From IMG/VR virus record IMGVR_UViG_3300048927_000805, positions 1 through 36,259 of that record: a DNA stretch of 36,259 nt. One strand, written 5' to 3'. Positions 8,019 through 11,196 of the stretch are shown here, in pieces (position 1 is the stretch's first letter; each line of letters starts with the position of its first letter). The DNA comes from a virus. The notes under the pieces are model-generated. The model ran no database searches and had not been told where the DNA came from. It saw only the letters and a program-made list of their open reading frames with translations. A program made the translations under genes and the position numbers.

Positions 8019-8047
8019 CTTATCGTTGGGAATTTATGACACGTCAA
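8019..8047 (-). promoter_or_regulatory. Predicted leftward early promoter
   Basis: On the minus strand TTGACG (8042-8047) and GATAAG (8019-8024) are separated by 17 bases. A full 15-base operator copy (8025-8039) lies within that spacer, so repressor binding would block polymerase. The predicted start site (about 8012) drives the leftward operon that ends in xis and int. Confidence 0.55.
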
Positions 8048-8070
8048 GCGTAAAATCATAAATTCCCAAC
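8025..8070. promoter_or_regulatory. Operator pair O1 (inverted 15-base repeats)
   Basis: A perfect inverted repeat: GTTGGGAATTTATGA at 8025-8039 and its exact complement at 8056-8070, separated by 16 bases. The same 15-mer occurs at 10057-10071 and, with two changes, at 10027-10041 beside the repressor gene. Shared sequence at both ends of the immunity region is the signature of repressor operators. Confidence 0.75.
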
Positions 8071-8084
8071 ACGCTCCGGTGGCG

Positions 8085-8879
8085 CTATGCCGCTTGGAGC
8101 TGCATCCTCCGTCCTACCGCTTCGACCATGCTGCGCTCGTCGCCTCGGAAGACAGCCATGGGCAGATCTCGATTCACTGCTCGCGACCACTTCCTGCGGC
8201 TGATTTGACGCATTTCCGGTTCTTCGAGCACGGCTATCATTGCTACAGTAGGATCAGGATGGTCCATCAGCTCCCTCCACGCGAGAAGAGCTTCGCTCAA
8301 TTTCTCGTTCGTGTTGACTAGATACAATCCAGCAGTCTTTGCCGCGGGAGCATGCGGCTTCACGACTATGTCGGCCGGGAACTCCGCAAGAGCCAAGCTG
8401 GGAGCGGCGCCTTCAAGGATTTCGACTTGGTCGCCGTACTTAAGCCTTACGGCTGCGATCACGTCATCCCGGAAGGCAGATTTGACCCGCTCCTTAGTGA
8501 TCAACGCTAAATCACGCACCCTTAGGAGCGATGCGAGAAAGCTCATCGCCCGTTCGGGCAACCGCTCAGCGGGGAACGTTTCCGTTCTCATCTCATAGGT
8601 GTCGCGGTCCCAGTAGGCGCCGGCCTCAGCCAGGATCGCGTCCAACATGGTTGCACGACTGCCCGCGTCTATCCGAATATCGTTCGCGATGAGAGTTGAA
8701 AGGTAGTCACCATCGTCTTCGATGCGCAGTCCGTCGTCCTCAGGAGATATGTAGAACGTCAGTTTATCACCCGCTCCATCATTGAAGACTGTACTTACAG
8801 CGTAACCGTCGCCGACTGGATGAACTTCCAAAGATCGACAAAAAGCCCCGCACAGCTGATCCTGAAGGTTCTCGATCAT
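8085..8879 (-). CDS. DUF1828/DUF1829-type protein in the immunity region
   Basis: A 264-residue protein of unknown biochemical function. Residues about 22-68 fit the DUF1828 pattern (GDGYAVSTVFNDGAGDKLTF, then DDGLRIEDDGDYLSTL), a compact beta domain, and the rest (residues 130-260) fits the associated DUF1829 region; the assignment is from memory of the family pattern. Base composition is about 50-55% GC, well below its neighbours, which marks it as a transferred accessory gene. It forms a pair with the gene at 8876-9313 through an ATGA overlap and lies between repressor and leftward promoter. Possible roles are superinfection exclusion, anti-phage defence, toxin-antitoxin or repressor modulation; none is shown. 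Confidence 0.7.
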   Translation of the reverse strand: MIENLQDQLCGAFCRSLEVHPVGDGYAVSTVFNDGAGDKLTFYISPEDDGLRIEDDGDYLSTLIANDIRIDAGSRATMLDAILAEAGAYWDRDTYEMRTETFPAERLPERAMSFLASLLRVRDLALITKERVKSAFRDDVIAAVRLKYGDQVEILEGAAPSLALAEFPADIVVKPHAPAAKTAGLYLVNTNEKLSEALLAWRELMDHPDPTVAMIAVLEEPEMRQISRRKWSRAVNRDLPMAVFRGDERSMVEAVGRRMQLQAA

Positions 8880-9313
8880 ATCAGGCCAAGCTGGGTTTGA
8901 ACGCCTGAGATCCTAAACATCTTAACAGCAGCATCCCAAAAAGCATCGCGTGTAGTGTGTATTCTACGGTGCTTTGCACCTGTCGGCGGCATCCGTTGTC
9001 CGCGGCTCATCCCTTCGGCACCTGGCTCAAGGACGCCGGTTAGACAGTCTGAGTGAATGTGGAAGCCGGGATGGCTACCATGAAACTCGTACCGCGCGAC
9101 CACAGCTGCACCCCCGGGGCCGCCCGCGAGCATGATTGCTTTGTAGTTCTGCCGACGCACATTGACCATCGCAACTACCCAGAAATCTCGGTTCTCAGCT
9201 TGCGCCCTGACCGATCGCCAAACCCAATCTGGCCCATGAGGTTTGCTCTTCGCCAAGATCGGGCAGTGCCTTGGTTGAAGGTCGCCTACCTTCCACCCGG
9301 TGTCGGACGTCAT
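8876..9313 (-). CDS. His-rich hypothetical partner of the DUF1828-type protein
   Basis: A 145-residue protein with no recognised family. The central segment RYEFHGSHPGFHIHSDC packs four His and a Cys into 13 residues and could bind a metal; N-terminal residues include VWRSVRAQAENRDFWVVAMV and a Gly-rich loop (AGGPGGAAVVA). ATG 9313 follows a GAAG stretch; an in-frame GTG at 9352 is the alternative. It shares an ATGA overlap with the DUF1828-type gene and the same lower GC, so the two form one cassette. They are likely to act together, but how is unknown. Confidence 0.6.
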   Translation of the reverse strand: MTSDTGWKVGDLQPRHCPILAKSKPHGPDWVWRSVRAQAENRDFWVVAMVNVRRQNYKAIMLAGGPGGAAVVARYEFHGSHPGFHIHSDCLTGVLEPGAEGMSRGQRMPPTGAKHRRIHTTRDAFWDAAVKMFRISGVQTQLGLI

Positions 9314-9503
9314 TTGTTTCTTCAGGCTGGCGGTACCGCGGTAGCTCGTCACCGGCTGTACATCCGTTTTGAAGGAATTTTCCTAGACATGCAATCCAGA
9401 ACGGAACAGAATGAGAACATGGCTGAGCGAGTCGAGTTGTTGGATGGCCCGGGTTGTTCCGATGGGTGCTTCCCATGCATCCGAAAGTGCGCCGTCGCCA
9501 AAG
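9314..9503. other. Intergenic region between repressor and two-gene cassette
   Basis: About 190 bases without a convincing gene. Open frames cross it on both strands but give low-complexity or family-less translations. It probably holds the 3' end of the repressor transcript and the promoter of the two-gene cassette; a small palindrome (AGGAAAATTCCT, near 9377-9388) is the only structure I can point to. Confidence 0.35.
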
Positions 9504-9989
9504 TCATATCCTCTTGGTGGCAGCGCGAGGAAGAACGCCTTCTTCGGGAGCGTCCAAAGCTTGCTGATCCTCAGCGTCGGGAGTGGCTTGCAAGCCTGAG
9601 GGAAGCGCAAGGACACCTGCAACGACTTCAGCAAGATATCGCGCCCGATCGGCGGCCTTCGACGGTAATGACGGCAGCGCGTCGGCAATCGCCTGCTCTA
9701 CGGCTCGTCGGCTCGGCGCACGCGCAAGTGCACCATCAGCCTCAGGCAAAAAGAACTCAGCTAGGCTGACACGGACCACCCGGAGCACCTGGCGCAATTG
9801 GTCGACACTGGGGTCGCTTGGCGGCTTCGTCGGCGTGCCGCGTAGGTTCGAGAAAAAGGACGGGCTAACACCGGCTTTCTGTGTCCATTGGCGCTCGCTC
9901 AAGTCCGAAGGCTTCACGTCTTCCAAGCGCTCGGCGATCGTCAGCGCTGAACGCTGCGCGCTCTCTTTTTTGTCCGGTCTAGAGGCCAT
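9504..9989 (-). CDS. CI-like phage repressor without S24 protease domain
   Basis: A 161-residue protein with an XRE-type helix-turn-helix at residues 30-52 (SERQWTQKAGVSPSFFSNLR), followed by a helical region with VSLAEFFLPEADG, typical of sphingomonad phage and host XRE regulators. The C-terminal 75 residues are Ala-rich and contain no S24/LexA-type Ser-Lys protease, so RecA-driven self-cleavage is not expected. Start choice: ATG 9989 lies about 15 bases after the predicted transcription start of a promoter with TTGGGA (10035-10040) and TATAAG (10011-10016); in-frame ATGs at 10025 and 10043 lie within that promoter. The promoter overlaps an operator copy, which suggests autoregulation. Confidence 0.8.
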   Translation of the reverse strand: MASRPDKKESAQRSALTIAERLEDVKPSDLSERQWTQKAGVSPSFFSNLRGTPTKPPSDPSVDQLRQVLRVVRVSLAEFFLPEADGALARAPSRRAVEQAIADALPSLPSKAADRARYLAEVVAGVLALPSGLQATPDAEDQQALDAPEEGVLPRAATKRI

Positions 9990-9992
9990 GTA

Positions 9993-10003
9993 GGGAATAT
10001 CCC
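9993..10003. promoter_or_regulatory. Near-palindrome resembling the operator core
   Basis: GGGAATATCCC, sharing GGGAAT with the 15-base operator, lies between the predicted transcription start and the ATG of the repressor. It could be a weak autoregulatory site. Only one copy exists, and the resemblance is short. Confidence 0.25.
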
Positions 10004-10010
10004 ACAGCCG

Positions 10011-10040
10011 CTTATAGCGGGCCATTTCATTTATTCCCAA
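10011..10040 (-). promoter_or_regulatory. Predicted repressor promoter
   Basis: On the minus strand TTGGGA (10035-10040) and TATAAG (10011-10016) with an 18-base spacer. The -35 box is part of the left arm of operator O2, and the predicted start is near 10004, giving a short leader before ATG 9989. Confidence 0.5.
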
Positions 10041-10071
10041 CATCAGCGCTTGAAGTGTTGGGAATTTATGA
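10027..10071. promoter_or_regulatory. Operator pair O2 (diverging 15-base repeats)
   Basis: Left arm 10027-10041 (TCATTTATTCCCAAC, two mismatches to the O1 arm) and right arm 10057-10071 (GTTGGGAATTTATGA, identical to O1), separated by 15 bases. The arms point away from each other, opposite to O1. They lie between the divergent repressor and cro-like genes. The right arm fills the spacer downstream of a TTGAAG box (10050-10055), the possible -35 of the rightward promoter, whose -10 is poor. Confidence 0.7.
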
Positions 10072-10094
10072 TACTGCTCGGGTGTATGGAGATC

Positions 10095-10298
10095 ATGACT
10101 GACGCTGAGCTGCTCGCCGCTGTCGAGGACTTCCTCACGCGGTCGGGAATGGCCCCCACCCGCTTCGGGCGCGAGGTGATGTCTGATGGTGCGCTCGTGC
10201 AGCACATGCGTGCGGGCAGATCGCTCTCGCTCACAAACGCGAACAAGGTGCTCGCATTCATCCGCCAGCAGGACGCTGCTCGCAAGGCCGCAGCTTGA
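10095..10298 (+). CDS. Cro-like small DNA-binding protein
   Basis: A 67-residue protein with the pattern FLTRSGMAPTRFGREVMSDG, then LVQHMRAGRSLSLTNANKVL, seen in short alphaproteobacterial phage HTH proteins. Helix-turn-helix about residues 15-45; C-terminal basic tail. It is the first gene to the right of operator O2, divergent from the repressor, the place of Cro in lambdoid phages. ATG 10095 is preceded closely by GGAG; ATG 10086 (three codons earlier) is the alternative and would lie near the predicted transcript start. Confidence 0.7.
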   Translation: MTDAELLAAVEDFLTRSGMAPTRFGREVMSDGALVQHMRAGRSLSLTNANKVLAFIRQQDAARKAAA

Positions 10299-10579
10299 TG
10301 CGCCGCCTGCCCGCCTCCCTGCGCACACCGCGCTACCCCATTGTTGCCGGCGGCATCCCCCCCTGCCCCGTTGCCGGCAGCAAGGGCGCCCAGCCCCTCC
10401 CCCCAGGCTGGGCGCCCACCACTGATACCCGCCCCGAGCCTGTAACAGCGGACAACGCCAGCCGCTGCGAAGCCGATCCTGCGCACCACTCCCTGTGCGT
10501 TAACGCCGTCGGACAAGCGGGTCTGCGTACAACGGCCAAGGTTCGGAATGGCGCCACCACCACCCGAGAGGAACGCTGA
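10298..10579 (+). CDS. Doubtful ORF downstream of cro-like gene
   Basis: A 93-codon frame that overlaps the cro-like stop as TGATG. The translation is Pro/Thr/Arg-rich with no recognisable fold, and it spans a 12-bp perfect hairpin (10384-10417). It may instead be an untranslated leader containing a terminator-like structure, comparable in position to tR1 of lambda. The coupled start is the only argument for a gene. Confidence 0.3.
   Translation: MRRLPASLRTPRYPIVAGGIPPCPVAGSKGAQPLPPGWAPTTDTRPEPVTADNASRCEADPAHHSLCVNAVGQAGLRTTAKVRNGATTTREER
10384..10417 (+). terminator. Strong hairpin downstream of cro-like gene
   Basis: GGGCGCCCAGCC (10384-10395) pairs perfectly with GGCTGGGCGCCC (10406-10417) around a 10-base C-rich loop. 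There is no U-tract after it (ACCACTG), so intrinsic termination is doubtful. Rho-dependent termination, pausing or RNA stability control are alternatives. Confidence 0.45.
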
Positions 10580-10738
10580 ATGGACCCGCAAGGCCTGTGC
10601 CTCGCCGTGCCGCTGCTCTGCGCGGCCTTCTACCTGTTCGCCACCGCGACGCTGCCCCTCGCTCACCAGCTGGTGCTGGCCGGCGCGGTCGGCGCGCTTC
10701 GGGTGGTTGGTCTCCGTAATCATACGAAGGGGCTATAA
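10580..10738 (+). CDS. Small membrane protein
   Basis: A 52-residue protein with two hydrophobic segments (LCLAVPLLCAAFYLFATATL and HQLVLAGAVGALRVVGL), probably inserted in the inner membrane. The start ATG 10580 has GAGAGGAA upstream, a very good ribosome binding site, and the TAA stop overlaps the next ATG by one base (TAATG). Function unknown. Confidence 0.6.
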   Translation: MDPQGLCLAVPLLCAAFYLFATATLPLAHQLVLAGAVGALRVVGLRNHTKGL

Positions 10739-11196
10739 TGGTGCAGCGCCGCGAAAACACGCGCCGCGAGTGCGAGATCTCGCTCGCCGTCGACATGGCG
10801 CAGATGCACATGTTCGACATCGCATACCGCAAGCATGGGTTCAGCCGGAAGATCCTGGCCAGCCATATGGAAGTGTCGGTTTCGACCGTGCGCAGCTGGG
10901 AAGAAGGCGCATCGATGCCGGTGCATGCCTTCGTCAAGCTGGCGCGGGTGCCGAAGTTCCCGAACGAGCTGCTGTCGCTGATGCTCGAGCCCGCCGACCG
11001 CGTCGTTGCCGATGCTGAGGAGGACGAGAGCGATCTCGACGACCTCGCACTGTCGGCACTGGACGTGCTGGTTCAGTACGTCGCCGCGCGCCACCCAGAC
11101 AGCCCCTCTGGCATCAAGATCGACCACACGGAGCGCGGCGCCATCAAGGACGCGGCGAAAGCGATCGCCGGTCGCGCGAAGAAGGTGGCGTCGTGA
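10738..11196 (+). CDS. XRE-like HTH regulator
   Basis: A 152-residue protein with a probable helix-turn-helix at residues 28-66: YRKHGFSRKILASHMEVSVS, then STVRSWEEGASMPV. The C-terminal half is acidic then helical (DDLALSALDVLVQYVAARHP), plausibly for oligomerisation. Position after the cro-like gene resembles that of CII-type activators, but the assignment to CII function is only positional. ATG 10738 overlaps the upstream TAA; its stop overlaps the next GTG (GTGA). Confidence 0.75.
   Translation: MVQRRENTRRECEISLAVDMAQMHMFDIAYRKHGFSRKILASHMEVSVSTVRSWEEGASMPVHAFVKLARVPKFPNELLSLMLEPADRVVADAEEDESDLDDLALSALDVLVQYVAARHPDSPSGIKIDHTERGAIKDAAKAIAGRAKKVAS

Follow-up and report, generated by a model that had tools for sequence, protein, structure and literature searches.

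What do two overlapping genes contribute to a prophage when they lie behind the gene of its probable repressor? The question is raised by IMG/VR virus record IMGVR_UViG_3300048927_000805, whose 36,259 nucleotides are analyzed here as one window, and in which a gene for a DUF1828 protein is directly preceded by a gene for a small histidine-rich protein, hereafter the partner. With moderate confidence, we interpret the pair as a self-contained anti-phage module of the toxin-antitoxin type (superinfection exclusion or abortive infection), belonging to the DUF6978-DUF1828 kind that is modeled in PADLOC as PDC-M24. Relatives of the pair occur in anti-virus gene clusters and on transposons, and it is therefore probably a toxin and its neutralizer that guard the host from other phages. 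We infer both the defense activity and the identity of the toxic protein.

Co-inheritance and genomic settings of the pair

Among 351 Sphingomonadaceae genomes, the DUF1828 gene was present in six and the partner was adjacent in all of these (6/6; Fisher p = 2.8e-12), a seventh partner match in the family being a weak fragment. Across the phylum, 399 genomes were sampled and 11 of them had the DUF1828 gene, with an intact gene directly upstream in 9 (L073 among these) and a partner remnant or broken genes in the other two (L066 and L058). The two genes also stood side by side in nearly all relatives recovered by protein searches, and the pairwise divergences of the two proteins were correlated (r = 0.93, Mantel test; 0 of 5000 permutations). 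As expected for toxin-antitoxin systems, we thus find a two-gene operon with a small first protein and co-inheritance of both members. Locus L066 retains an intact DUF1828 gene and only an N-terminal remnant of the partner (9931-10963), a loss that agrees with the partner being the costly component. Both genes are broken in L058, and they are likewise interrupted in L017 (5521-6809; Methylobacterium ajmalii), a decaying copy. A different arrangement was seen in L073, where a 165-aa protein that is unrelated to the partner by profile and carries a GSHTH cluster (9653-10150) precedes the DUF1828 gene behind a cI-type repressor.

The window pair itself lies in a prophage, and pairs behind a repressor gene were found in at least 13 other prophages of sphingomonads, Rhizobium and Pseudomonas. 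The repressor gene precedes the pair in the same orientation in L002, L003, L004/L020, L007, L014, L015, L021, L022, L023, L027, L130 and L131, with one small open reading frame (ORF) between repressor and pair in L003; small ORFs also intervene in L073. Relatives at L065-L070 lie in or near known immune systems: the pairs of L065 and L070 are embedded among type I restriction-modification (R-M) genes, the DUF1828 gene of L066 stands between BrxC and PglX of a bacteriophage exclusion (BREX) locus, and type IIG R-M enzymes adjoin the pair or are close to it in L067-L069, together with a reverse transcriptase in L067. Carriage by transposons is clearest in L018 (4452-6959), where an IS1595-family transposase gene, the partner and the DUF1828 gene are enclosed by perfect 23-bp terminal repeats and flanked by an 8-bp target duplication (aaaatata); L064 (8376-10883) harbors a similar IS1595-family element with imperfect terminal repeats and a target duplication, and the transposase remnants in L019, L063 and L072 mark decayed transposon copies. 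No setting was assigned to L016, L017, L061, L062 and L071, and plasmid searches with both pair proteins found none. In the literature searched, there was no description of the regular place of the pair in prophage immunity regions or of its carriage by IS1595 elements. The occurrence of the pair in prophage immunity regions, R-M and BREX loci and transposons alike suggests a single portable unit directed against phages.

An earlier note on this DNA had proposed a mobile functional pair and a candidate accessory or defense system, to be abandoned if homologs of the two genes did not co-occur or if both proved to be fixed structural or replication genes. The adjacency in all six positive genomes of the 351 speaks against the first outcome. 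Against the second stand the rarity of the pair (about 2-3% of genomes), its guanine-cytosine (GC) content, which is below that of the surroundings in 22 of 23 loci, and the variety of its settings. The proposal is thus well supported by co-occurrence and by the prophage, defense-locus and transposon contexts.

The window copy and its immunity region

Three minus-strand genes, encoding a helix-turn-helix (HTH) protein, the partner and the DUF1828 protein, are read between two inverted repeats, with the gene of the HTH protein, the probable repressor, preceding the pair (see the table). Four half-sites of the repeat were found in comparison with 0.47 expected, and none of 100 shuffled sequences gave four. 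In phage lambda, rexAB lies behind the repressor gene, between the left and right operators. As judged from the order of genes and repeats, the window is laid out as a lambdoid immunity region, and its pair takes the slot that rexAB occupies in lambda.

Features of the immunity region, by position in the 36,259-nt window
Feature	Position	Strand	Description
Left operator-like inverted repeat	8025..8070	.	Exact 15-bp arms GTTGGGAATTTATGA, 16-nt spacer
DUF1828 gene, second of the pair	8085..8879	-	264 aa; PF08861, PADLOC PDC-M24B and phrog_5059 matches
ATGA stop/start overlap of partner and DUF1828 genes	8876..8879	-	Putative translational coupling, from the sequence
Partner gene, first of the pair	8876..9352	-	158 aa, GTG start; without family match
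HTH protein gene, probable immunity repressor	9504..9989	-	161 aa; weak HTH matches and position between operators
Right operator-like inverted repeat	10027..10072	.	GTTGGGAATTTATGA again, with 2 mismatches in one arm

Much of what the earlier note had described here stands: both minus-strand ORFs are present and overlap at the ATGA, the pair lies between the repressor gene and the leftward operator, which corresponds to the exact inverted repeat at 8025-8070 and has a second copy at 10027-10072, and the GC content of the pair is low. The latter is 56.6%, compared with 66.4% for the remaining window, and ranks fifth lowest among 350 windows of equal length; the stretch from operator to operator is similarly low as a whole (56.7%). 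The boundary that had been set for the upstream gene, at the ATG at 9313, needs revision. The partner gene most likely starts at the GTG at 9352 because the protein then includes K12, a residue encoded upstream of the ATG and invariant across all 16 partner relatives, and because the resulting N-terminus has about the same length as in these relatives.

For the window HTH protein, family searches returned weak HTH matches only and did not find an S24 peptidase domain, unlike in related prophages, which have an S24/HTH repressor in the corresponding place. Having no recognizable S24 domain, the window protein differs from the related repressors, and induction of this prophage may bypass the usual self-cleavage. 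In four sphingomonad-type prophages, a HIRAN-domain ORF that does not occur in the window directly follows the pair (L015, 6781-7194; L020, 6787-7185; L021, 6798-7199; L022, 6810-7196); the match to PF08797 was tested on L015, and the other three are alike by sequence.

Roles of the two proteins and rival explanations

In the mechanism that we propose, the pair would be transcribed together with the repressor in the lysogen, from the rexAB position. The small histidine-rich upstream protein would act as effector or toxin, probably as a metal- or histidine-dependent nuclease or other hydrolase, and the DUF1828 protein would bind and restrain it as neutralizer or sensor, by means of its DUF1828 domain and a catalytically degenerate, DUF1829-type PD-(D/E)XK-like C-terminal domain. 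Infection by another phage would free the effector, and growth would stop. We consider this assignment, with the DUF1828 protein as neutralizer and the histidine-rich protein as toxin, the most likely one by analogy, because a DUF1829-bearing protein partners the HipA toxin in HipAD/DS-6, a validated defense system (PMC13092281). That protein appears to neutralize HipA, and toxicity resulted when the DUF3037 protein was deleted from a HipA pair of this kind (PMC12548924).

The DUF1828 protein matched PF08861 in Pfam (E = 1.2e-10), the PDC-M24B model in PADLOC (PDLC04539, E = 1.1e-16) and phrog_5059 in PHROGs (E = 8.9e-25). Of the DUF1828/DUF1829 pattern to which the earlier note had assigned it, the DUF1828 part was confirmed, and the DUF1829 part found no Pfam match (PF08862) in the window protein. 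Its relative in L046, which is paired with a DUF6978 partner, combines both in one protein, with a DUF1829 match (E = 7e-32) at the equivalent C-terminal place. The AlphaFold2 model of the window protein (predicted local distance difference test, pLDDT, 90.6) consists of an alpha/beta domain at the N-terminus, a long helix and, at the C-terminus, a domain whose predicted alpha-beta-beta-beta-alpha-beta order fits the PD-(D/E)XK core topology. Foldseek matches in the PDB include the PD-(D/E)XK nucleases NucS, EndoMS, Kpn2I and Can2 (E-values 0.01-0.06), with unrelated Rab GTPases further down the same list. D170, at the place where this fold should have its first acidic residue, is invariant in 26 sequences. 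Because the [DE]xK motif is missing from strand 3 (residues 183-188) in all 26, the protein is probably no standard nuclease, and its C-terminal half is predicted to be a degenerate PD-(D/E)XK-like domain at the DUF1829 position.

In the main rival explanation the roles are reversed: the PD-(D/E)XK-like domain would make the DUF1828 protein a DNA-cutting effector, and the histidine-rich protein would be a sensor or regulator. The nucleases among the top fold matches and the invariant D170 would suit such an effector; the missing acidic-x-Lys motif would not, and an unrestrained nuclease would hardly be expected to persist as the DUF1828 gene of L066 does, without a full partner. We regard the reversal as unlikely.

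The partner had no match in Pfam, PADLOC, PHROGs, NCBIfam or PDB sequences, including none to the PDC-M24A and DUF6978 models at E <= 1, and PDB sequence and profile searches with both pair proteins gave nothing convincing. The dense His/Cys cluster pointed out in the earlier note is real and conserved: in the motif RYEFHGSHPGFHIH, E89, H91, H98 and H100 (numbering of the 158-aa protein) do not vary among 17 sequences and H94 hardly does, while the cysteine is not invariant. The AlphaFold2 model (pLDDT 84.1; predicted template modeling score, pTM, 0.82) is mainly an antiparallel beta-sheet with short terminal helices. That the partner matches no recognized family also holds, though its slot is occupied elsewhere by DUF6978: this is so in Pseudomonas aeruginosa phages (L003 and copies), where the protein matches PDC-M24A, and the partners of L046, L053, L054 and L130 match DUF6978 as well, those of L053 and L054 scoring just under the curated cutoff. 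The window partner clade and DUF6978 have in common their position, their length, an N-terminal K...W pattern and an R-[YF]-x...H-x-H motif, and their common descent is likely but unproven.

A proposal compatible with a toxic partner is that it is a distant member of the TumE superfamily of translation-blocking toxins. TumE proteins carry an R-Y-[DE]...H-x-H signature that is similar in both residues and spacing (RYD..HxH in the partner) and pair with unrelated antitoxins (PMC10584680). We collected 39 TumE proteins and scored profiles against column shuffles; the score of the window clade was no better than chance (27 of 40 shuffles as good), that of DUF6978 was marginal (2 of 40), and there was no match to the TumE family PF20126. 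Homology of the window partner clade to TumE is thus unsupported by these profiles, and we judge membership improbable.

Similarly doubtful is a purely selfish addiction module, a toxin-antitoxin pair that would stabilize its prophage or transposon and have no anti-phage role: carriage by both kinds of element and the coupled gene order fit it, but several genomes have the pair within BREX or type I R-M operons, a location more typical of defense, and the two roles overlap in practice. Lysogeny-control genes, such as co-regulators of the repressor, might be expected behind a repressor gene and between two operators, but we set this very improbable explanation aside because relatives occur outside prophages, namely in chromosomes without an adjacent S24 repressor, in R-M/BREX loci and in IS1595 elements, and family searches found no HTH in either pair protein.

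Several points weigh against the anti-phage module that we favor. A promoter and terminator scan stayed at chance level and gave no promoter evidence beyond it. The Foldseek probability for NucS/EndoMS was 0.97, but the best E-value was only 0.011, a weak resemblance. The partner fold had no match in the PDB or among viral models at E <= 0.001, and because it matches nothing known, it gives no clue to a catalytic activity. The profile link between partner and DUF6978 is marginal (0 of 40 shuffles as good, in one of three profiles). The neutralizing activity in HipAD could reside in DUF3037 instead of DUF1829. Finally, the PDCs of PADLOC are candidates from guilt-by-embedding and mostly unvalidated (PMC12988326), and we found no functional study of DUF1828, DUF6978 or PDC-M24 in the literature.

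More tentatively, the anti-phage reading might be extended: the partner clade could be a family of effectors not described before, having a new fold and a histidine-based active site, with DUF1828 as its dedicated neutralizer. Temperate phages of several proteobacterial lineages would have repeatedly placed such pairs in the rex position, where they would serve for exclusion linked to the repressor, and IS1595 transposons would move the pair between chromosomes. Under the anti-phage interpretation as a whole, two domains whose function is unknown and a histidine-rich protein that has no name become a testable defense pair.

Comparison with known systems

Lambda rexA-rexB resembles the window pair in its place behind the repressor gene, between the left and right operators, but neither window protein has a RexA or RexB family among its Pfam or PHROGs matches at E <= 1. 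TumE-TumA (DUF6516) is likewise a two-gene operon with a small beta-sheet protein and the R-Y-[DE]...H-x-H motif; it differs in showing no significant profile similarity, and the second gene in the window encodes a DUF1828 protein instead of a known TumA antitoxin. HipAD (DS-6, PDC-M66), which joins a HipA kinase to a DUF3037-DUF1829 protein, is also a two-gene system, and DUF1829 is C-terminal in some DUF1828 proteins as well, whereas its toxin is a kinase unrelated to the histidine-rich partner and DUF1828 is not reported there.

PDC-M24 (DUF6978 with DUF1828) has the same gene order (A first), size and overlap as the window pair, the second gene of which matches PDC-M24B, and the relatives in P. 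aeruginosa phages, at the same place in the immunity region, match both PDC-M24A and PDC-M24B. The difference lies in the window partner clade, which matches neither PDC-M24A nor DUF6978, so that the system model would not call the pair here. On these model matches, with gene B passing and gene A failing, the window pair is a divergent variant of the untested candidate PDC-M24. Since the PADLOC model for gene A misses this type of partner, such pairs are probably overlooked and uncounted in current defense surveys.
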